Below, piece after piece: positions 44,801 to 62,800 of a stretch of DNA of 64,000 nt. The notes under the pieces were generated by a model. The model saw only the letters and a list, made by a program, of their open reading frames with translations, did not search any database and had not been told where the DNA came from. Every line of letters begins with the position of its first letter. The stretch's first letter is position 1. The stretch is from positions 11,904,001-11,968,000 of the forward strand of contig OX387198.1 in assembly GCA_947561715.1 (NCBI GenBank), given 5' to 3'. Position numbers and translations under genes: made by a program. Source of the stretch: Ascidia mentula. Its lineage: Eukaryota; Chordata; Ascidiacea; Phlebobranchia; Ascidiidae.

Positions 44801-47800
44801 CCTTGAGACCCATTGTAACGTGCTTTTTCTGCGGATCGGCGGCGCTACACGCTACACAGCAGTTTTTTGGCCTTTAGCCGAAACGCGTCCCATCCAATCT
44901 TCTAGGTAGCCGAGCCCGCGAAACACAACAGACACTTGTATTCGATACAGGAACGACCAGCACAACAACGCGCCAGAATGGAACGGTTTCTAGTTAAAGA
45001 AACACAATTGTACATTCAATATTTACACAAATTCACACTATGGCAAATTCAATCGCACTTACCGAACTGTTTTGCGACCGATCTTATTCCGTAAATTATC
45101 AGTAGTGACAACACATCTTTCAGTTGCAATTAGTTATCCAGTAAACTTTTCAATTGTTGCAAAACAGTCAACAAACTATTTCGCATTTTGCAACTAAAAC
45201 CTTATTCAAATAGAATCAGTATTATTATATGTACCACAATAACTGGCAACACAACTAGCAATGAAAAACATAACCATGCGGTCTGCACGCGCACGTCTAC
45301 TGCGCAGCCTTTGTCACATAATAACGAGAGTTGTGCCAAACAAAGAAAACATAACGAAAACAGTAACAAAAGGAAAGAAATTTTGGTTTGGGAATTTACA
45401 TCCTCCCCCCAAATTGGGAAACCAATTTTTACAGCGAACAAAGATTCACAACTCAGTCTCATTCTCCTGCGGGATCACCACGCAGAGTTTAGTGATGGGT
45501 CTCCTGAGTAAACCTCCGGCCGTCTTCACTGCAACGCTCCTCACCACCTGGTGTTTATCATGGAATAGTTCGGTGACTTTTCCAAGAGGCCATCGACATC
45601 GTGGAGCAGAATCATTGACGAGTAGCACAACATCACCTTTGGAAAAATTACTTCTCCTGGTGTGCCATTTTTGTCTGGAGATGATTGTCCGGGGGTACTC
45701 CCTCAGCCATCGTTGCCAAAACTCATCGGCAACATGCTGAACCAGGCGGTATCGGCGTCTGGCGTAGCAATCGCTCGGGTAGGTCATCGTCGGCGGCAAT
45801 CCCACCGATGGGTTAATTCTTAATAGGTGGTTTGGCGTCAAGGGCATGTCTTTACCAACTTCCAGGGAAACTTCAGTTAGAGGTCGTGAATTTATGATGT
45901 TCTCCACCTCCAACAGCAACGTGTGTAGGGCGTCATCGTCTAGTTTTCCCTCAGGATAAATCGCCATCATAATTCTTCGGACGGTTCTGATCATCCGTTC
46001 CCACACTCCACCCATGTGGCTTGCTCCTGGTGGGTTGAACGACCACTTCACCTTCCGCTGGCGCAAGTAGTCACAGATCTGATTTTGGTTCCATTTTTCC
46101 ACGTCTTCCTTCATAACGCGGTTAGCACCGACGAAATTGGTTCCGTTATCCGAGTAAATGTGTGATATTGGACCACGTCGTGCAAGAAATCGCCTCAAGA
46201 CATTCAAAAAGGCGCCTGTAGTTAGGTCGGCAGCAACTTCTAAATGAACAGCACGTGTCGTCATACACGTAAACAGACATCCGTACCTTTTTATTTCGCA
46301 TCTGCGTTGTCTGATCAGCAAAGGTCCGAAATAGTCCACACCGACGTGTGAGAATGGTGGTTCGTCAACCTGCAATCTGGACGGAGGCAGGTCAGCCATC
46401 AGCTGCTGTCCTGGCTTGGCATTTCTTCGTCGGCAAAACAAGCAATGGCGTATAACCCGACGAACAGTCGCTCGGGCGTTCACTATCCAGTAGCGCTGGC
46501 ACAACAAACTCAATGTGTAGTTGATACCAGCATGTCCCGCACCTTGGGCGTGCACTTCTTGGGCAATTAATTCCGTTAGGCGACAATCATTTGGAAGAAT
46601 CGCCGGATGCCTTGTTTCGTAGCTCAACGTCGTGTCTGCCGCCAACACGAAGTATGTCGTCCTTCAATATAGGGTCGAGCCTATAGAGCGCAGATTTTGG
46701 CAGCAGTTTACCCGTGGGTAGCGATGCAAGCCAATCAGCAAAGTGCTGACGCTGCACAAACTTGACGAGTTCTGACTCAGCAATTTTTAATTCGTCAACG
46801 GATATAGGCGAGTGTGACACGGTCACCTCTTTCTTTTTAGCTTTACAGTACAAGTAGCGTTTAAACCTGAGCAACCATGCAGTTGCCAACTTCAAACGAT
46901 GTAGTGATGAAAAATAGCCAATCAAACGATCAGTACCTTTTTCTTCGAGCGTTGTGAGGAAAACATCCGCCTTGATTCTTTCCAAGTCAAAGCTTTTGTA
47001 GACCTCAGCAGTAGTTGGTTTCTTAGTAAATCGATTTGGCCACTGGTCGGGTGTCTTTCGCAGGAACTCAGGTCCGGTTAATCACATTCCGCTGCACAGT
47101 GCATTGGCAGTAACACCGCGAGACGCTGCATCAGCCGGGTTCTCGTCGGTTGGTACGTGTATCCAATCATGGACACACGAGTGATTCAAAATCTGTGTAA
47201 TTCGATTTCGCGAAAATATATGAAAGTTCTTGCTGTCGGCGTGCAAACTCTGCAGCACGATGGATGAGTCAGTCCAAAACAGACAAGGACAGTCTTCTAA
47301 ATCAAGTTCCTCCTTCACTGTTCGTGACATTTTTACTGCATCCAAAGCAGCCTCCAGTTCCAGTCGTGGTATGGTCTGCCTTCCTGAACCGGAAAGCAGT
47401 GATTTGCCCATCACCAGAGAGCACGTAACGTTCGAGCGGTCATCTACTGACCTCAGGTAACAAGCACAACCTCGTGCTTCTGACGAAGCGTCAGCAAAAA
47501 CATGTAACTGTACTTTGGACGCATTGGTGGTCATTCGATAAAAACGAGGTATTCTTACCTCACAAAGGTCACAGAGGCTTTCTCGCCATTTTCGCCACCT
47601 GGCTTGATCCGTGGTCGGCACGACATCGTCCCATCCAATCTTCTGTTGACACACGTCCCTGTAGATCAATCTGGCTTGTAGGACCACGGGTGCAACGAGT
47701 CCAAGGGGGTCAAACAGGGAGTTTGTCACAGAGAGCATTCCACGTCGCGTAATCGGTTTGTCCGGCAGGACGACATTAAATCCAAACTCGTCCTTCGGAA

Positions 47801-50800
47801 GACGCCAGCTGATTCCCAGAACACGTTCCTGTACCTCTCCGCCAAGCGGAATGTTCTGGATTGATTTGGACCTTTCTCCGCTGGGGTCAGAGGTCATCAC
47901 AGCATCACTCGATGACAACCATTTTGTCAGCCTGAAACCTCCCATGGACAGTAGACTTCTCAAATTTTCCACCATTTTAATTCCCATTGTTTCTGTGGGG
48001 ATTGATAATAAACAATCGTCCACATAAAAGTTTTTTCTCACAACCTCGGCAACACGAGGATCAAAAAACTTCCCAAATTCACGTGCGGTTTCACGTAGGC
48101 AGAATGTGGCGCAGCTTGGGGACGACTTCGCGCCAAATAAATGAACAGTCATTCGGTGAGGCGCAGGATCCTTCAGTGTGTCGCCTCCTGGCCACCACAA
48201 GAATCTGAAGGCGTCACGATCCTGCTGCGTGACGCGTACTTGATGGAACATGGCTTCTATGTCCGCAACCAATTCCACGGCTTCTTTGCGGAATCTCAGA
48301 AGCACTCCAACTAACGAGTTCATTAAGTCTGGTCCTTTCATCAAGTGATCGTTGATAGAGTTACCGTCGCACTTTGCGGCACAGTCAAAAACGATTCGAA
48401 GCTTATCCGGCTTCTTTGGGTTTACCACGGGGTGGTGAGGAAGGTACCACTTCCGACCATCAGCACTAATTTCTTCTTCTGGTACCCGTTCGGCATAACC
48501 CTTTTCCAAAAGAATTTGCATCTGCTGAACATACTTTTGACTCAAACTTGCATCACGTGACAAACGCTTCCTAAGACCAGACAGTCGTTTCTGTGCCAAT
48601 TTCAAAGTGTTGGGAAGGACATCTGCCAAATTTCGCCACAACAGTGGTAATTGGTAATGTCCATCTATGTGTTCCACTTGCTTGGCCATGATGTCATATG
48701 CAATGACGTCTTCTGCAGAAAACCTCAATCCAAACTCCATTGCTTCCCTGTTGCTCCGGAGCCACTGGAGGAAGGATTCGGCATCCCCCAAACCACCACT
48801 TTGCATGGGGTAAGTTTCACCATCATCGGTCACGATGACGTCATCGATGTTATTAAAGGAATTGAAACGTTCAATTCCTTGCAACAGAAAACTACAGCCC
48901 CTGGAGGTTTTCTGTGGAGCATAACCTCTTAGCAACCAACCTAGAGGCGTTTTTACAGCGTCCGGGTACTCCGGATCAGGGGAGAACCGACTCTCCAAAC
49001 ACCGATGAACTAAGTAGTTGTCTGTACCAATAAGTAATGTGACAGACCCATCTTTGATTTGCGGTAAATGTATACTCCCTTCAGATGCTTGGGACGAACA
49101 GGTGTTCCAAACTTTGGGACATGCTCAGGCGGGACAGGGATTTCGTCAAGTAACGTCACTTCCGGTAAATTGAATTCCTCTCCTCCCCTCAAGGGCAGTA
49201 CTGACATGGAGATTTTCACGGTGTTCAGCTCCTTTGCACCATTGATCGAACCGAGCTGCATACGAACGGGTTCGCCTTCTACCTCAACACCCAACATGTT
49301 GATCAGCCGTTTCTCACAGAAGGTTTTGTCCGAACCAGTGTCCAGCAGAGCATATGTTTCAATTTCCTTGTCCCCGACGCGGACTCGAACAGGAACAATG
49401 TCTAACCAAGCGGACAATGAGTTGCTACCATGACAGCCCACGGTATTCAAGCAACTACCCTGCGTCAAAGACGCCGAGTCATTTCCATTTTTGTCCTCCG
49501 AAGATGCGTCCGTCGGTCGAGGTCTCGCCGGATTGTGCAGTAGCACATGATGGTATGCACTTCCACAACCTTCCTCATCGCAAACCGTCCTACTGCTACA
49601 ATCGACAACCATGTGTCCCACTTCAAGACACCGGAAACACAAACCTTTCGCTCGCACAAATTGTCGTCGCTCACGATGCGATTTTCGTTTAAACGCATAG
49701 CAGACGTTGAGGTCATGCGGCTTTGCACAACAAGGACACGGTCTCTTTCGTTGTGTTGACTGTTGTTCGTTCTGCACCGATTTCTGTGCACTAGTAGTAG
49801 CAATGGCGTTGTATGACGTCGCCTTTTGTCGTTTGATACCTTGATTCTTTTCAGGGCCTGAAGGAAAGAGACCTTTCCCATATATCGAGTTGGCTTCCTC
49901 ACTCTGCTTTACAACGAAATTTGCAAAATCCACGAAACGCGCGACTCTACCCGTTTCCCTTTGCAATGCAACAGATACAGATACCCACTTACATTGCATC
50001 TCCACAGGTAGCTTGCTAGCAATAGCAACAATAAAACCGACGGAATCTACGGTAGACATACCAGTAATTTCCTCCAATGATACGCAGCATCTCTTAAGGA
50101 GGACGGCCAACTTTTCCAAACCGTCGGGGTCGTTTCGTCCAATCTTCGGACTTTCTTGCAACTTCCTTTCGCAGCAACGAGCGATGATATGTGGTTGCCC
50201 ATAACGTTCGTACAATTCTTTCCAAGCAAGTTCGTAGCTGACTGCAGGGTTTGAGGATGACGTATGGTGCCTCAGCTTTTCATTGACACTCGGCGTGCAA
50301 TGTTGCAGCAAGTATGTAAGTCTTAAATAATCACAGTCTAATCTGCTAGCAATATGAATTTTGTACCGATTTGCAAATGACCAATAGTCCATAGGGTCGC
50401 CATCAAACTTTGTTATTTGTGGTTTTGGAAGAAAACGTTCACCAACCTCCGTATAATGAGGTCTAAACTGTGTCGTAGAGGTATGTCCATTATGTGGCGA
50501 GTAAATATTATCACGTGGTACCTTTTGGCGACTAGGACGTTCGAATTCCTTGAACTTTATTTCATTTGGTTTAGGATCTTCGATCACTAATTCTTCAGGA
50601 TTCTTGGGACACACTGTGTCTTTTCGGGGTTCGTATTTTAACGAACAAACACTCCCAACTTCTTCCCATGCGTCCAGTTCGGCTTCTGCTAATTCTAACT
50701 TCCGTTGAGATTCACGATCAGCGATTTCAGCTTCCAATTTTCTTTTATCTAGTTCTCGTTGAAGAGTGAACTCGGCTTGTTTTAATTCCTCTTCTTTTCG

Positions 50801-53800
50801 TTCTTCATCTTGCTTGCGTGCTAATCGAGCAAGATTTAGCTTCACACGACTTTCCTTTAACTTAATACTGTATGTCGAGCTCCTAGAAGATCTTACGCTC
50901 CCAGTGTGAATAGTGGATTCACATCGTTTCGACGTTCTACTTGCGGGCGGTGAACGGCTACCAGCTTCAGAGACAGGCACCGGTGTTGAAATGTCTCGCA
51001 GCCACTGCCTGACACGTGTGTCAAATTCGTTCTTGCCTCGAACACAATCCCTTTTTCGAGACACACTTCCCGGCATCGTGGTCTCATCGGACATATCTTC
51101 ACACAGGTTCATAACCTCGGTGTAGCTTGCTTCTACGGCAAGCAACGCTTCTTGCAATTTTTCCTTTTCGCGGTTGAGCATCACCCTCTTAGCATCGAGG
51201 TAATCATCTTGTAACTGTTTTAATGCACAGCCAAGCCGTTTTCTCTTCTTCTTTGTCAGGACAGGCATGTTGTGACGTCACAAACGGTTGTAATAATGAC
51301 AGTTCGAAATTTGTATGTAACGTGCTTTTTCTGCGGATGGGCGGCGCTACACGCTACACAGCAGTTTTTTGGCCTTTAGCCGAAACGCGTCCCATCCAAT
51401 CTTCTAGGTAGCCGAGCCCGCGAAACACAACAGACACTTGTATTCGATACAGGAACGACCAGCACAACAACGCGCCAGAATGAAACGGTTTCTAGTTAAA
51501 GAAACACAATTGTACATTCAATATTTAAACAAATTCACACTATGGCAAATTCAATCGCACTTACCGAACTGTTTTGCGACCGATCTTATTCCGTAAATTA
51601 TCAGTAGTGACAACACATCTTTCAGTTGCAATTAGTTATCCAGTAAACTTTTCAATTGTTGCAAAACAGTCAACAAACTATTTCGCATTTTGCAACTAAA
51701 ACCTTATTCAAATAGAATCAGTATTATTATATGTACCACAATAACTGGCAACACAACTAGCAATGAAAAACATAACCAAGCGGTCTGCACGCGCACGTCT
51801 ACTGCGCAGCCTTTGTCACATAATAACGAGAGTTGTGCCAAACATAGAAAACATAACGAAAACAGTAACAAAAGGAAAGAAATTTTGGTTTGGGAATCTA
51901 CACCCATAGTAAGTAATTGATAACAATACAACTGGGGTCAAGCCAGGCGTTAATCAATTAATATGTGATATGTTTTATTTAGAGGGTTTGTATTTGACTA
52001 ATTAGCGCTTTCACTTTTAAATTTGCTTCCGAATGGAATTTTGATCAAAAACTGTTTTAAAAATGTTCAGATACTATCCTACTTCTAAACAAATCAGGAT
52101 GCAATTATGTCAAATGCCAGTCTCAAAGATTGAGTATGATACCAAATGTATGTTAAAATACCTGCTCTTCAGGTCAGCTTGATATATTGCAAAATACAAC
52201 ACATCGTGACCTTGAAACTTTACGACAGCAAATGCCCACAACTTCACAAGTTCAAGTATTTCAGAGCTTTCTTCATGGTAAGAATTTTCATCTGTATTTA
52301 TTAGGTAATTTATTCAACTTGCAAATAAAAGTATTGAAAATGGTAAATATATATAAACTTTCATGTTGTTTTTAGCCCAATTGAAAATGCATCGAAATGA
52401 AACAACTCAACAGATGCAAGCATACAACAATATTGTTCAAGGTAAATACCGCTCCTATTATTGGTTGTCAATTGACGCATAGTTTTGTCTGCCGATTTAA
52501 GATTAACTAAATACTGGTACTTGGCATTCGAAAACGCAATATTACATATTATCTCATTCATAACGGGTAAAAATGAAAACATAATGGTGTTTTCGAAATT
52601 TTGCGGTCTAACGCTCTAAAAAATATTGGCAATTTAGTAATAGACATTTAAGAGCATTATCAACCTAACACAAAGGACATGCAGTTTTCTACATTAATAA
52701 ATGCCTATGAAAAAGAATGCCAATGGACTACAAGTGTTCCCGAAAATTGGTTATTATACTAAATCCAGGATATGGATCATTGCAAACCCTTTGTCCTAAT
52801 TACAGTTTTCACCAAAATTAATGTTAAATATTTGTACTTCACGACGTTGCGTTTGAACAGAAATACCTAGAAAGTAACTACGAAATAAAAAATATTTCGC
52901 CCCCAAAATTGGCGTATCTTCAAAAAAAACTGTCATAGTTTTGGTTTAACTCTGTACCCGATATGATGAAGTTAAACCATTGGCACAAATTCATGACATT
53001 GTTCATTCCCACGTGACTTACAATCGCACGCAAACGTATTCAATAAGGAAGTCTTTAAAACGCGCAATGCCCGAAAACCCTTCACGGATCCAATGGTGCT
53101 TCCTTGAGACCAATTGTAACGTGCTTTTTCTGCGGATCGGCGGCGCTACACGCTACACAGCAGTTTTTTGGCCTTTAGCCGAAACGCGTCCCATCCAATC
53201 TTCTAGGTAGCCGAGCCCGCGAAACACAACAGACACTTGTATTCGATACAGGAACGACCAGCACAACAACGCGCCAGAATGGAACGGTTTCTAGTTAAAG
53301 AAACACAATTGTACATTCAATATTTACACAAATTCACACTATGGCAAATTCAATCGCACTTACCGAACTGTTTTGCGACCGATCTTATTCCGTAAATTAT
53401 CAGTAGTGACAACACATCTTTCAGTTGCAATTAGTTATCCAGTAAACTTTTCAATTGTTGCAAAACAGTCAACAAACTATTTCGCATTTTGCAACTAAAA
53501 CCTTATTCAAATAGAATCAGTATTATTATATGTACCACAATAACTGGCAACACAACTAGCAATGAAAAACATAACCATGCGGTCTGCACGCGCACGTCTA
53601 CTGCGCAGCCTTTGTCACATAATAACGAGAGTTGTGCCAAACAAAGAAAACATAACGAAAACAGTAACAAAAGGAAAGAAATTTTGGTTTGGGAATTTAC
53701 ATCCTCCCCCCAAATTGGGAAACCAATTTTTACAGCGAACAAAGATTCACAACTCAGTCTCATTCTCCTGCGGGATCACCACGCAGAGTTTAGTGATGGG

Positions 53801-56800
53801 TCTCCTGAGTAAACCTCCGGCCGTCTTCACTGCAACGCTCCTCACCACCTGGTGTTTATCATGGAATAGTTCGGTGACTTTTCCAAGAGGCCATCGACAT
53901 CGTGGAGCAGAATCATTGACGAGTAGCACAACATCACCTTTGGAAAAATTACTTCTCCTGGTGTGCCATTTTTGTCTGGAGATGATTGTCCGGGGGTACT
54001 CCCTCAGCCATCGTTGCCAAAACTCATCGGCAACATGCTGAACCAGGCGGTATCGGCGTCTGGCGTAGCAATCGCTCGGGTAGGTCATCGTCGGCGGCAA
54101 TCCCACCGATGGGTTAATTCTTAATAGGTGGTTTGGCGTCAAGGGCATGTCTTTACCAACTTCCAGGGAAACTTCAGTTAGAGGTCGTGAATTTATGATG
54201 TTCTCCACCTCCAACAGCAACGTGTGTAGGGCGTCATCGTCTAGTTTTCCCTCAGGATAAATCGCCATCATAATTCTTCGGACGGTTCTGATCATCCGTT
54301 CCCACACTCCACCCATGTGGCTTGCTCCTGGTGGGTTGAACGACCACTTCACCTTCCGCTGGCGCAAGTAGTCACAGATCTGATTTTGGTTCCATTTTTC
54401 CACGTCTTCCTTCATAACGCGGTTAGCACCGACGAAATTGGTTCCGTTATCCGAGTAAATGTGTGATATTGGACCACGTCGTGCAAGAAATCGCCTCAAG
54501 ACATTCAAAAAGGCGCCTGTAGTTAGGTCGGCAGCAACTTCTAAATGAACAGCACGTGTCGTCATACACGTAAACAGACATCCGTACCTTTTTATTTCGC
54601 ATCTGCGTTGTCTGATCAGCAAAGGTCCGAAATAGTCCACACCGACGTGTGAGAATGGTGGTTCGTCAACCTGCAATCTGGACGGAGGCAGGTCAGCCAT
54701 CAGCTGCTGTCCTGGCTTGGCATTTCTTCGTCGGCAAAACAAGCAATGGCGTATAACCCGACGAACAGTCGCTCGGGCGTTCACTATCCAGTAGCGCTGG
54801 CACAACAAACTCAATGTGTAGTTGATACCAGCATGTCCCGCACCTTGGGCGTGCACTTCTTGGGCAATTAATTCCGTTAGGCGACAATCATTTGGAAGAA
54901 TCGCCGGATGCCTTGTTTCGTAGCTCAACGTCGTGTCTGCCGCCAACACGAAGTATGTCGTCCTTCAATATAGGGTCGAGCCTATAGAGCGCAGATTTTG
55001 GCAGCAGTTTACCCGTGGGTAGCGATGCAAGCCAATCAGCAAAGTGCTGACGCTGCACAAACTTGACGAGTTCTGACTCAGCAATTTTTAATTCGTCAAC
55101 GGATATAGGCGAGTGTGACACGGTCACCTCTTTCTTTTTAGCTTTACAGTACAAGTAGCGTTTAAACCTGAGCAACCATGCAGTTGCCAACTTCAAACGA
55201 TGTAGTGATGAAAAATAGCCAATCAAACGATCAGTACCTTTTTCTTCGAGCGTTGTGAGGAAAACATCCGCCTTGATTCTTTCCAAGTCAAAGCTTTTGT
55301 AGACCTCAGCAGTAGTTGGTTTCTTAGTAAATCGATTTGGCCACTGGTCGGGTGTCTTTCGCAGGAACTCAGGTCCGGTTAATCACATTCCGCTGCACAG
55401 TGCATTGGCAGTAACACCGCGAGACGCTGCATCAGCCGGGTTCTCGTCGGTTGGTACGTGTATCCAATCATGGACACACGAGTGATTCAAAATCTGTGTA
55501 ATTCGATTTCGCGAAAATATATGAAAGTTCTTGCTGTCGGCGTGCAAACTCTGCAGCACGATGGATGAGTCAGTCCAAAACAGACAAGGACAGTCTTCTA
55601 AATCAAGTTCCTCCTTCACTGTTCGTGACATTTTTACTGCATCCAAAGCAGCCTCCAGTTCCAGTCGTGGTATGGTCTGCCTTCCTGAACCGGAAAGCAG
55701 TGATTTGCCCATCACCAGAGAGCACGTAACGTTCGAGCGGTCATCTACTGACCTCAGGTAACAAGCACAACCTCGTGCTTCTGACGAAGCGTCAGCAAAA
55801 ACATGTAACTGTACTTTGGACGCATTGGTGGTCATTCGATAAAAACGAGGTATTCTTACCTCACAAAGGTCACAGAGGCTTTCTCGCCATTTTCGCCACC
55901 TGGCTTGATCCGTGGTCGGCACGACATCGTCCCATCCAATCTTCTGTTGACACACGTCCCTGTAGATCAATCTGGCTTGTAGGACCACGGGTGCAACGAG
56001 TCCAAGGGGGTCAAACAGGGAGTTTGTCACAGAGAGCATTCCACGTCGCGTAATCGGTTTGTCCGGCAGGACGACATTAAATCCAAACTCGTCCTTCGGA
56101 AGACGCCAGCTGATTCCCAGAACACGTTCCTGTACCTCTCCGCCAAGCGGAATGTTCTGGATTGATTTGGACCTTTCTCCGCTGGGGTCAGAGGTCATCA
56201 CAGCATCACTCGATGACAACCATTTTGTCAGCCTGAAACCTCCCATGGACAGTAGACTTCTCAAATTTTCCACCATTTTAATTCCCATTGTTTCTGTGGG
56301 GATTGATAATAAACAATCGTCCACATAAAAGTTTTTTCTCACAACCTCGGCAACACGAGGATCAAAAAACTTCCCAAATTCACGTGCGGTTTCACGTAGG
56401 CAGAATGTGGCGCAGCTTGGGGACGACTTCGCGCCAAATAAATGAACAGTCATTCGGTGAGGCGCAGGATCCTTCAGTGTGTCGCCTCCTGGCCACCACA
56501 AGAATCTGAAGGCGTCACGATCCTGCTGCGTGACGCGTACTTGATGGAACATGGCTTCTATGTCCGCAACCAATTCCACGGCTTCTTTGCGGAATCTCAG
56601 AAGCACTCCAACTAACGAGTTCATTAAGTCTGGTCCTTTCATCAAGTGATCGTTGATAGAGTTACCGTCGCACTTTGCGGCACAGTCAAAAACGATTCGA
56701 AGCTTATCCGGCTTCTTTGGGTTTACCACGGGGTGGTGAGGAAGGTACCACTTCCGACCATCAGCACTAATTTCTTCTTCTGGTACCCGTTCGGCATAAC

Positions 56801-59800
56801 CCTTTTCCAAAAGAATTTGCATCTGCTGAACATACTTTTGACTCAAACTTGCATCACGTGACAAACGCTTCCTAAGACCAGACAGTCGTTTCTGTGCCAA
56901 TTTCAAAGTGTTGGGAAGGACATCTGCCAAATTTCGCCACAACAGTGGTAATTGGTAATGTCCATCTATGTGTTCCACTTGCTTGGCCATGATGTCATAT
57001 GCAATGACGTCTTCTGCAGAAAACCTCAATCCAAACTCCATTGCTTCCCTGTTGCTCCGGAGCCACTGGAGGAAGGATTCGGCATCCCCCAAACCACCAC
57101 TTTGCATGGGGTAAGTTTCACCATCATCGGTCACGATGACGTCATCGATGTTATTAAAGGAATTGAAACGTTCAATTCCTTGCAACAGAAAACTACAGCC
57201 CCTGGAGGTTTTCTGTGGAGCATAACCTCTTAGCAATCAACCTAGAGGCGTTTTTACAGCGTCCGGGTACTCCGGATCAGGGGAGAACCGACTCTCCAAA
57301 CACCGATGAACTAAGTAGTTGTCTGTACCAATAAGTAATGTGACAGACCCATCTTTGATTTGCGGTAAATGTACTCCCTTCAGATGCTTGGGACGAACAG
57401 GTGTTCCAAACTTTGGGACATGCTCAGGCGGGACAGGGATTTCGTCAAGTAACGTCACTTCCGGTAAATTGAACTCCTCTCCTCCCCTCAAGGGCAGTAC
57501 TGACATGGAGATTTTCACGGTGTTCAGCTCCTTTGCACCATTGATCGAACCGAGCTGCATACGAACGGGTTCGCCTTCTACCTCAACACCCAACATGTTG
57601 ATCAGCCGTTTCTCACAGAAGGTTTTGTCCGAACCAGTGTCCAGCAGAGCATATGTTTCAATTTCCTTGTCCCCGACGCGGACTCGAACAGGAACAATGT
57701 CTAACCAAGCGGACAATGAGTTGCTACCATGACAGCCCACGGTATTCAAGCAACTACCCTGCGTCAAAGACGCCGAGTCATTTCCATTTTTGTCCTCCGA
57801 AGATGCGTCCGTCGGTCGAGGTCTCGCCGGATTGTGCAGTAGCACATGATGGTATGCACTTCCACAACCTTCCTCATCGCAAACCGTCCTACTGCTACAA
57901 TCGACAACCATGTGTCCCACTTCAAGACACCGGAAACACAAACCTTTCGCTCGCACAAATTGTCGTCGCTCACGATGCGATTTTCGTTTAAACGCATAGC
58001 AGACGTTGAGGTCATGCGGCTTTGCACAACAAGGACACGGTCTCTTTCGTTGTGTTGACTGTTGTTCGTTCTGCACCGATTTCTGTGCACTAGTAGTAGC
58101 AATGGCGTTGTATGACGTCGCCTTTTGTCGTTTGATACCTTGATTCTTTTCAGGGCCTGAAGGAAAGAGACCTTTCCCATATATCGAGTTGGCTTCCTCA
58201 CTCTGCTTTACAACGAAATTTGCAAAATCCACGAAACGCGCGACTCTACCCGTTTCCCTTTGCAATGCAACAGATACAGATACCCACTTACATTGCATCT
58301 CCACAGGTAGCTTGCTAGCAATAGCAACAATAAAACCGACGGAATCTACGGTAGACATACCAGTAATTTCCTCCAATGATACGCAGCATCTCTTAAGGAG
58401 GACGGCCAACTTTTCCAAACCGTCGGGGTCGTTTCGTCCAATCTTCGGACTTTCTTGCAACTTCCTTTCGCAGCAACGAGCGATGATATGTGGTTGCCCA
58501 TAGCGTTCGTACAATTCTTTCCAAGCAAGTTCGTAGCTGACTGCAGGGTTTGAGGATGACGTATGGTGCCTCAGCTTTTCATTGACACTCGGCGTGCAAT
58601 GTTGCAGCAAGTATGTAAGTCTTAAATAATCACAGTCTAATCTGCTAGCAATATGAATTTTGTACCGATTTGCAAATGACCAATAGTCCATAGGGTCGCC
58701 ATCAAACTTTGTTATTTGTGGTTTTGGAAGAAAACGTTCACCAACCTCCGTATAATGAGGTCTAAACTGTGTCGTAGAGGTATGTCCATTATGTGGCGAG
58801 TAAATATTATCACGTGGTACCTTTTGGCGACTAGGACGTTCGAATTCCTTGAACTTTATTTCATTTGGTTTAGGATCTTCGATCACTAATTCTTCAGGAT
58901 TCTTGGGACACACTGTGTCTTTTCGGGGTTCGTATTTTAACGAACAAACACTCCCAACTTCTTCCCATGCGTCCAGTTCGGCTTCTGCTAATTCTAACTT
59001 CCGTTGAGATTCACGATCAGCGATTTCAGCTTCCAATTTTCTTTTATCTAGTTCTCGTTGAAGAGTGAACTCGGCTTGTTTTAATTCCTCTTCTTTTCGT
59101 TCTTCATCTTGCTTGCGTGCTAATCGAGCAAGATTTAGCTTCACACGACTTTCCTTTAACTTAATACTGTATGTCGAGCTCCTAGAAGATCTTACGCTCC
59201 CAGTGTGAATAGTGGATTCACATCGTTTCGACGTTCTACTTGCGGGCGGTGAACGGCTACCAGCTTCAGAGACAGGCACCGGTGTTGAAATGTCTCGCAG
59301 CCACTGCCTGACACGTGTGTCAAATTCGTTCTTGCCTCGAACACAATCCCTTTTTCGAGACACACTTTCCGGCATCGTGGCCTCATCGGACATATCTTCA
59401 CACAGGTTCATAACCTCGGTGTAGCTTGCTTCTACGGCAAGCAACGCTTCTTGCAATTTTTCCTTTTCGCGGTTGAGCATCACCCTCTCAGCATCGAGGT
59501 AATCATCTTGTAACTGTTTTAATGCACAGCCAAGCCGTTTTCTCTTCTTCTTTGTCAGGACAGGCATGTTGTGACGTCACAAACGGTTGTAACAATGACA
59601 GTTCGAAATTTGTATGTAACGTGCTTTTTCTGCGGATCGGCGGCGCTACACGCTACACAGCAGTTTTTTGGCCTTTAGCCGAAACGCGTCCCATCCAATC
59701 TTCTAGGTAGCCGAGCCCGCGAAACACAACAGACACTTGTATTCGATACAGGAACGACCAGCACAACAACGCGCCAGAATGGAACGGTTTCTAGTTAAAG

Positions 59801-62800
59801 AAACACAATTGTACATTTAATATTTACACAAATTCACACTATGGCAAATTCAATCGCACTTACCGAACTGTTTTGCGACCGATCTTATTCCGTAAATTAT
59901 CAGTAGTGACAACACATCTTTCAGTTGCAATTAGTTATCCAGTAACCTTTTCAATTGTTGCAAAACAGTCAACAAACTATTTCGCATTTTGCAACTAAAA
60001 CCTTATTCAAATAGAATCAGTATTATTATATGTACCACAATAGCTGGCAACACAACTAGCAATGAAAAACATAACCATGCGGTCTGCACGCGCACGTCTA
60101 CTGCGCAGCCTTTGTCACATAATAACGAGAGTTGTGCCAAACATAGAAAACATAACGAAAACAGTAACAAAAGGAAAGAAATTTTGGTTTGGGAATCTAC
60201 ACCCATAGTAAGTAATTGATAACAATACAACGGGGGTCAAGCCAGGCGTTAATCAATTAATATGTGATATGTTTTATTTAGAGGGTTTGTATTTGACTAA
60301 TTAGCGCTTTCACTTTTAAATTTGCTTCCGAATGGAATTTTGATCGAAAACTGTTTTAAAAATGTTCAGATACTATCCTACTTCTAAACAAATCAGGATG
60401 CAATTATGTCAAATGCCAGTCTCAAAGATTGAGTATGATACCAAATGTATGTTAAAATACCTGCTCTTCAGGCCAGCTTGATATATTGCAAAATACAACA
60501 CATCGTGACCTTGAAGCTTTACGACAGCAAATGCCCACAACTTCACAAATTCAAGTATTTCAGAGCTTTCTTCATGGTAAGAATTTTCATCTGTATTTAT
60601 CAGGTAATTTGTTCAACTTGCAAATAAAAGTATTCAAACTGGTAAATATATATAAACTTTCATGTTGTTTTTAGCCCAATTGGAAATTTATCGAAATGAA
60701 ACTACTCAACAGATGCAAGCATACAACAATATTGTTCAAGGTAAATACCGCTCCTATTATTGGTTGTCAATTGACGCATAGTTTTGTCCGCCGATTTAAA
60801 GAGCAACTAAATACTGGTATTTGCCATTCGAAAACGAAGATTACATATTATCTTATTCAAAACAGGTAAAAAAGAAAACATAATGGTGTTTTCGTAATTT
60901 TGCGTTCTAACGCTTTAAAAAATATTGGCAATTAAGCAATATACATTTAAGAGCATTATCAACCTAACACAAAGGACATGCAGTTTTCTACTTGTAAACT
61001 AATCCTTTTGTTATTTTTTTGCCTACCGCAGGCGACATAATATTGGGATAAAACTGCTTTAAGTCAATTGATTAAGCTGATTATACTAAATTCAAACTGA
61101 TTATACCGAAAAAACTACCCATGTTGTTAGGTCAGCTTGACGGTAAACTAAATATCACATATCTTCATATTCACGTCAATAGATACATCCGCAACTTTTC
61201 ATGTATTGCAGGGTTTTCTTGAAGTTTTTGTAAGAACTGCATCTAAAATCAATTACATTGCAAACGTTGCTGCATATGTTCTAAAAAATGAAAAATAAAT
61301 ATGTTTTTTTTTTCGCGATTGGGTTGAGTTTTCAGTGGCATTATTTAAAAAGCTTGCAAATTGGTATAATTGCATTGTGTGTAGGTCAAGTGGAAGTTCT
61401 TCAAAATGAAACTGCTGAACAGATGCAAGGAATTCATAAAAGTGTGACGTCAATACAGAGTAATAACTGATGAACTAATGGAACAATTTGGAACGATTTT
61501 CAGTAACAAATAAAGACCAATGACATAACAACATTATATATACATTAGAAAAAATATTCCAACGATGCAAAACCCTGCAGTTTCGTTAGAAAAATAGAAA
61601 ATGTTTGTATTTGCAGCATCGATAAACATTGCACCTTTGAACTATTTGTAATCAAATTACATTTGCTCTTCAGGCCAATTGGACACATTCCAAAGTACCA
61701 CATATCGTAATATTCAGGATTTACGACGACATATGGGCGCAACTTCAGAAATTCAAGCATTGCAGAGTTTTGTCAGTGGTAAATTTTACACAAACATAAA
61801 ATTGTCAAGCATTCGGGGAACAATATCACGTTGCGCTATTATTCAAAAACATGTCATGTAATATTAGATCAAATGCAATCACATCGAAATGAATTTGTTC
61901 AGAACATGGGACGAATTCAGCGAAGTGTGACGACGATACAAAGTGAGAATGCCGAATCACTCTCAACGGCAATTTATTGTGTTACAAAAAAACCTTGCTT
62001 TTGGCACATCCAATTAACACACAAACACTGCAGATTTAAAATAACTAACCATAATTTTCTTTTACACCGTCATGCACAAATTGTTTTTATTCATTCATGC
62101 GCACAGAAATTATAGTAAAGCCAATGAAATGTTTTGTATAAAAAAAAGTTAGTAGCAATGATGACGATCGATATTTGTAGCGTTTTTATCACTTCGGGGG
62201 TAGCTTAAATTTTTGCAAAACTTAAAATAATTGAAAAACCTTTTGGTCAAATAAATTCGGCAAATTTTAATTTTCGTTGTAGTACCAAAAATCTTGACGA
62301 TTGAGTAACATACATTTAAGAACATTGTGAACAAAAGACTTACAGATTTCTACATTAATAAATGCCTGTTTACCACAAAATGCCTGTGGACTAAACGTGT
62401 TCCCGAAACTTGGCTAATATGCTAAAATCAGGATAACGAAAGGCCGTCAACATTATTAACACTACCATCGTCGTTTAGATCATCTGGTAAGATACGACAA
62501 TCGCATCACTACCAGAATGACGTCGGTAGAAGGAAAAATCGTGCACAAAATAGCAACTAATTGGGTGTCAATAAACGTTATGTTCTTTAGGTGCGGTTGC
62601 GAGGTCCAGAAACGACACAACTCAGGGTTTCGAAATGTTACAGATTCAAATGGAAACGTCATTTCAAATTTTCAGTGAGGGTATTTTGCAAGGTAGGCGC
62701 AAAAAGATTGTGAGTCGTCAATAAAACGTAAACTAACCAGTTAGTCTTTGTGCGACTTTTGTTTTCCGAATATGAATTTATTTTTCTAACAAACTCTTGT

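Follow-up and report, generated by a model that had tools for sequence, protein, structure and literature searches.

A complete host spliced leader inside the LTRs and at the 5' ends of retroelements in the genome of the ascidian Ascidia mentula

The window analyzed here, a stretch of 64,000 nucleotides from the genome of Ascidia mentula (assembly GCA_947561715.1, contig OX387198.1, positions 11,904,001 to 11,968,000), contains two elements on the minus strand that are BEL/Pao LTR retrotransposons, judging by their Pao-type peptidase, integrase, paired LTRs and target-site duplication (Table 1). The integrase domains Integrase_H2C2 (46.8 bits) and DUF5641 (97.4 bits) both exceed their Pfam cut-offs, and the match to the reverse transcriptase domain RVT_1, at 26.2 bits, lies under its cut-off of 29.6. 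Inspection by eye of the 60 nt located 3' of the 5' LTR revealed no recognizable TGG-type primer-binding match. The target-site flanks of the second element read ATGGG and ATTGG, the latter at 53110-53114. The LTRs, each defined as a 590-nt extended repeat less three flanking bases, measure 587 nt, have TG...CA ends and carry, on the sense strand of the elements, an exact copy of the 16-mer ATTCTATTTGAATAAG that is directly followed on its 3' side by GTTTTAGTTGC. With up to two mismatches allowed, 0.14 matches are expected per shuffled window, and none of 100 shuffles contained four. A preliminary description of this DNA had reported the four 16-mers, each followed by GT and lying at nucleotide 185 of the LTR, and both the matches and their position are confirmed. 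Both elements are embedded in an 8.3-kb segmental duplication whose copies are 98.9–99.2% identical, so that the four LTRs represent one family case and not four independent ones. From 34042 to 62435 a diverged repeat is arranged in tandem; the two elements occupy equivalent places in this array, and they probably multiplied together with it through the 8.3-kb duplication. The long open frames at 47082-51277 and 55383-59576 have unlike boundaries in the two element copies.

Table 1. Parts of the two BEL/Pao elements, in window coordinates
Feature	Position	Strand	Basis
Leader 16-mer, 5' LTR of element 1, then GT	51703..51718	-	exact match and context
Leader 16-mer, 3' LTR of element 1, then GT	45201..45216	-	exact match
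Leader 16-mer, 5' LTR of element 2, then GT	60002..60017	-	exact match
Leader 16-mer, 3' LTR of element 2, then GT	53502..53517	-	exact match
5' LTR of element 1 (587 nt, TG...CA; leader at LTR nt 185)	51316..51902	-	repeat and ends
3' LTR of element 1; purine-rich tract before LTR on sense strand	44814..45400	-	repeat and ends
5' LTR of element 2	59615..60201	-	repeat and ends
3' LTR of element 2	53115..53701	-	repeat and ends
Target-site duplication ATGGG, element 1, 5' side	51903..51907	-	flank letters, same five on other side
Target-site duplication ATGGG, element 1, 3' side	44809..44813	-	flank letters
Pao peptidase domain (Peptidase_A17), element 1	47265..47750	-	Pfam, E 9.7e-43; Pao-peptidase search hits the same place
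Integrase part of element 1 (Integrase_H2C2, DUF5641)	45446..46663	-	Pfam

The same 16-mer is printed in PMC7986045 as the spliced leader of Ciona, where it is known from mRNA 5' ends. The earlier proposal that it is also the leader of this host is borne out by the assembly from which the window was taken (195.8 Mb in 79 contigs): contig C1 contains tandem arrays of SL RNA genes with units of 720 and 719 bp (sizes taken from the spacing of matches, the letters having been examined in two stretches), in which the exact 16-mer precedes GTAAGCATCACGCCC and a T-rich stretch, the units reading leader plus GTAAGCATCACGCCCTGCTTGGGCTACTTTTTTGAC. At the sequence level, the 16-mer of the LTRs is the leader exon of the predicted SL RNA genes of the same genome. 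In two array loci (L009 and L010, C1:15.239-15.298 Mb) each fully examined 720-bp unit has a second SL-like gene, with the leader ATTCTGTTTGAATAAG and an altered T-rich stretch. This variant was considered as a second source of leaders for the elements and rejected: it is followed by GTB (B, any base except A) only six times, with four of these copies clustering around 16.01-16.04 Mb of C1 and another belonging to the element family designated F1, so that the variant appears almost absent from elements and there is no sign that it feeds them. Repeats derived from SL genes, with the leader followed by GCAAGCATACG and then by unrelated sequence, occur at three further loci (L093, L094, L104) on C1 and C71.

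The assembly contains 2157 exact copies of the leader and no copy of the reversed control. The next bases are not GTAA, the context found in the arrays, in 485 copies (GTB 146, not G 241, GV 86, GTAB 12), the remaining 1672 being counted as GTAA by subtraction; some SL-gene-like satellite copies (L064, L093, L094, L104) are among the 485. Flanks were clustered for 111 loci, which were sampled by next base and not at random, with L001-L015 and L108 excluded; next-base shares in this sample are not frequencies. Similarity on both sides of the leader was shared by 13 loci in family F1, 12 in F2, 9 in F5, 8 in F8/F9, 6 in F3 and 5 each in F4 and F7, the last of these falling partly outside the unselected sample. 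Three LINE copies entered the same class merely through lying in a satellite, and of two further pairs one (L071, L074) forms an inverted repeat and the other (L093, L094) consists of SL-gene satellites. By protein domains F1, F2, F3 and F5 are BEL/Pao, as is F10, whose leader pair at C71:12968133 and 12974684 encloses a Pao peptidase, and the domain order of F4 (rve before RVT_2) is that of Copia. Among the copies examined, the leader is thus located, on sequence criteria, in the LTRs of several BEL/Pao families and of one Copia family; its presence in several families and orders goes beyond what the first reading of the window had seen. When the 150-nt flanks of one representative per family were compared, only F1 and F6, F1 and F8, and F8 and F9 were related, and the ten representatives therefore reduce to seven contexts, between which no similarity was detected beyond the leader itself. 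Not every BEL/Pao copy carries it. A Pao-peptidase search gave 150 scored matches among 363 candidates, 79 of them on the four contigs (C1, C2, C52, C67) with complete leader lists outside the GTAA class; an exact leader on the same strand lay within LTR range of 22 of the 79 and on the opposite strand of 4, so that most BEL/Pao copies on these contigs are without an exact leader.

LINE insertions and an unclassified short repeat, as judged from the flanks of their copies, also have the leader at their 5' end: in both, the downstream sequence is common and the upstream sequence unique, the leader being the first base of the insertion. The LINE class matches Baculo_FP_2nd above the cut-off and Exo_endo_phos at 24.1 bits, slightly under the cut-off of 24.5. 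For the LINE subfamily designated GTATTAG, a query lacking the leader found six matches, five of which reach the first nucleotide of the query, and all five carry the leader at their 5' end, four exactly and one (L108) at 14 of 16 positions. Relatives of these LINEs entered a satellite of ~138 bp at differing points, each starting at the leader; L078, L079 and L083 are such copies, and in L079 the satellite sequence contains another exact leader, 10 nt upstream of the first. In two LINE-like insertions (L109, L110) the perfect leader is followed by the relics TCTTGAATAAG and AATTTGAATAAG or AATTTGCATAAG, a succession that looks like several rounds of leader addition. The short dispersed repeats (L048, L071, L074 and relatives) begin with the leader, have no GT after it and contain CTGATGATGCC...GGCGAAATAT, which is reminiscent of a hammerhead ribozyme; some lie head to head, leader and body then forming long inverted repeats. 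The hammerhead assignment was not borne out: in nine sources nothing reached the gathering score of an Rfam model, and none of the seven Rfam matches obtained at E up to 5, in eight of the nine, is a hammerhead. In target-primed reverse transcription the 5' end of an insertion normally mirrors the 5' end of its RNA. Since the LINE insertions begin at the leader, and since copies of LTR families differ at the edges of the leader, we infer that the leader of the LTRs marks the start of R, which agrees with the position near the U3/R border that had been assumed at the outset.

Some of the perfect leaders are accompanied by decayed ones. Leader-like stretches with a local score of at least 9 and within 60 nt of a perfect leader were found downstream at 24 of 92 loci and upstream at 2 (background, 73 of 4000 random 60-mers); at a score of at least 10 the counts are 14 and 1 (background, 31 of 4000). 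Loci belonging to the same family do not count independently here. These relics belong mainly to F4, F5, F6, F8 and the LINEs; the matches in L040 and L075 may be due to chance, and L119 is a counter-example with its relic upstream of the perfect leader. Several families also contain tandem leaders. F8 exists as a leader, a G and a decayed leader, as a single leader (L092) and as three exact leaders separated by G (L099), with one G likewise separating the tandem leaders of L090, and L106, with the same one-G spacing, has three tandem leaders plus part of a fourth. Within families, the junction downstream of the leader can be displaced with U3 remaining the same. In F5 the form leader, GTTGAATAAG, TTGC (L028) stands against the leader directly joined to TTGC (L060 and L127, the partner of the latter, 6.7 kb off at C52:11912922, likewise having T after the leader), and in F4 leader, GTTATATTTGAATAAG, ACAT (L026) stands against leader and ACAT (L068); in both families the shift is to AATAAG. 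The shifts in F4 and F5 fit the use of an AG acceptor, and a deletion between tandem repeats gives the same result; the junction of leader and CAAAAC in L014 and L126 does not fit an AG acceptor. The downstream forms of F1 are GTTTTAG, GATGTTAG (in pairs spaced 6.3-6.5 kb) and CAAAAC (in both LTRs of L014). In F2 the variation is on the U3 side, of which there are at least four forms, the 3' junction being constant.

These observations are best accommodated, with a probability that we put at roughly 55%, by a model in which the host leader was trans-spliced to element RNA and then, through reverse transcription, became part of the LTR at the point where R starts. Element RNA would acquire the leader at an AG, either one close to the start of R or the one with which an older leader ends; minus-strand strong-stop DNA would then terminate in the complement of the leader and jump to the 3' LTR, whereby the leader would become fixed between U3 and R and end up as the first bases of R. 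Once both LTRs contain the leader, trans-spliced RNA would keep 16 nt of homology for the jump, and the leader would be renewed or kept. Repeated rounds would generate decaying relics, tandem copies and junction shifts to the next AATAAG. Such a model would account for the place of the leader, the relics, the junction shifts with constant U3 and the spread over several orders, and the excess of relics on the 3' side of the perfect leader is what it would leave behind. More tentatively, elements may retain the leader at the very beginning of R, with the host trans-splicing machinery rebuilding the 16-nt repeat in each round, an arrangement on which several orders would have converged. Trans-splicing would otherwise remove R and block strand transfer, and host RNA processing would have become both end repair for the element and a disguise of its 5' end. 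Several observations count against write-back by trans-splicing: no good acceptor (pyrimidine tract) precedes the embedded leader, L119 has an upstream relic and L079 an upstream second exact leader, the L014/L126 junction does not conform, only 22 of 79 Pao matches are near a leader, and within F1 and F2 the conservation of the leader does not measurably exceed that of its downstream neighbours. F1 has 5 changes in 656 leader positions as compared to 19 in 369 for the upstream 9 nt and 6 in 410 for the downstream 10 nt (downstream p 0.35), and F2 has 5 in 512, two of the five common to two copies, as compared to 10 in 320 upstream and 1 in 288 downstream (downstream p 0.43). The junction shifts, moreover, could have arisen from tandem leader repeats by deletion or mispairing.

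The most serious competitor, which we regard as possible and clearly less probable, is that the LTR itself encodes the leader as part of its promoter and R, transcription starting at the first A so that the RNA imitates a trans-spliced mRNA, and that the GT may persist because it acts as a weak splice donor or binds U1. This would also account for the place of the leader in the LTR, and it would suit an excess of GT that write-back does not predict: GT follows the leader in 158 of the 485 non-GTAA copies, more commonly than a random dinucleotide would, and in all sampled loci of F2 (12), F3 (6) and F7 (5). In searches that allowed mismatches GT was kept in 41 of 41 F1 and 32 of 32 F2 copies, with a search pattern that favours GT. 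In one copy of F9, as well as in F4 and F5, the GT coincides with the start of a relic, hinting at repeated gain of GT, and a search with F1 U3 found the exact leader next to 38 of 40 scored matches (96 candidates), these 40 being young copies that are 96–100% identical. An encoded leader alone, however, leaves unexplained the nested decaying relics, the leaders at LINE 5' ends and several kinds of GT-less copies with paired LTRs, and unrelated families that gained the exact 16-mer independently would still need a source. The next bases are GA in 5 and CA in 3 of 13 F1-type loci, TT in 2 of 9 F5 loci and AC in 1 of 5 F4 loci; because the GA and CA copies of F1 and the T copy of F5 are paired at LTR spacing, GT is dispensable for transposition.

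The preliminary description had taken the GT as a mark of descent from an SL RNA gene, a fragment of which, donor included, would have been inserted into the LTR as DNA. SL RNA genes and many LTRs do have the 16-mer and GT in common, but related copies with GA, CA or TT exist and nothing matches past the GT. In the ten representative families the SL RNA gene is matched at 3-7 of the 20 positions after the leader and at 2-6 of the 20 before it, and the intron part and Sm site expected of an SL RNA gene after the leader are not recognizable there. Separate events at the expected RNA start would, in addition, be required in several orders, and we consider capture of DNA improbable. Slightly more improbable still is a single old gain in BEL/Pao followed by divergence of the flanks, the occurrences in other orders being coincidences or template switches. 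The common upstream sequence of F1, F6, F8 and F9 implies that part of the spread among BEL/Pao is indeed due to descent; nevertheless, the Copia and LINE families require separate gains, and most BEL/Pao protease matches have no exact leader nearby. Chance or base composition, for which the AT-richness of the 16-mer might speak, is refuted by the absence of the reversed control and by the shuffled windows, and we give it practically no weight.

If element RNA is indeed trans-spliced and written back, LTR elements can survive the loss of R to leader splicing, the embedded leaders preserve a dated history of trans-splicing in this species' DNA, and leader-tagged reads as well as gene counts based on the leader include retroelements. 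New 5' exons could originate from LTRs in which the leader is followed by GT. The old question of how an RNA benefits from its spliced leader becomes testable, within one genome, on families with and without the leader.

We found no report in the open-licence literature of leaders inside tunicate LTRs, nor of a complete leader that occupies one place in both LTRs in several families and is accompanied by relics and variable junctions; the excerpts of PMC6836712, PMC8008620, PMC5240408 and PMC3795323 contain nothing on leaders in elements. The return of trans-spliced RNA to DNA does have precedents, in flatworms and dinoflagellates. The relevant passages of PMC12582326 describe 597 flatworm loci with partial leaders at mobile elements, chiefly LTR and LINE, and suggest trans-spliced retrotransposon RNA as the source. 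The association with LTR and LINE elements is the same here, whereas the flatworm leaders are partial and treated as an aside; the leader found here is complete and of the chordate type, and it occupies a fixed place in both LTRs, while members of a family differ in their junctions and contain nested relics. In Echinococcus, according to the pertinent part of PMC4558846, solo-LTR transcripts are spliced to a trans-splicing acceptor, so that LTR and spliced leader are in competition for one acceptor, as would be the case here; that LTR is not reported there to contain the leader, and a GT present by chance may serve as its donor. A parallel in form is offered by the relict leaders of dinoflagellates (mRNA recycling, Slamovits and Keeling), described in sections of PMC3229502 and PMC6050394, where a perfect leader is likewise followed downstream by decaying relics of the same polarity; these are ascribed to successive rounds of trans-splicing, which used the AG of an older leader, and of reverse transcription. 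The dinoflagellate cases described there are host genes, whereas in the LTR elements of Ascidia the leader must pass through strand transfer and ends inside the LTR.
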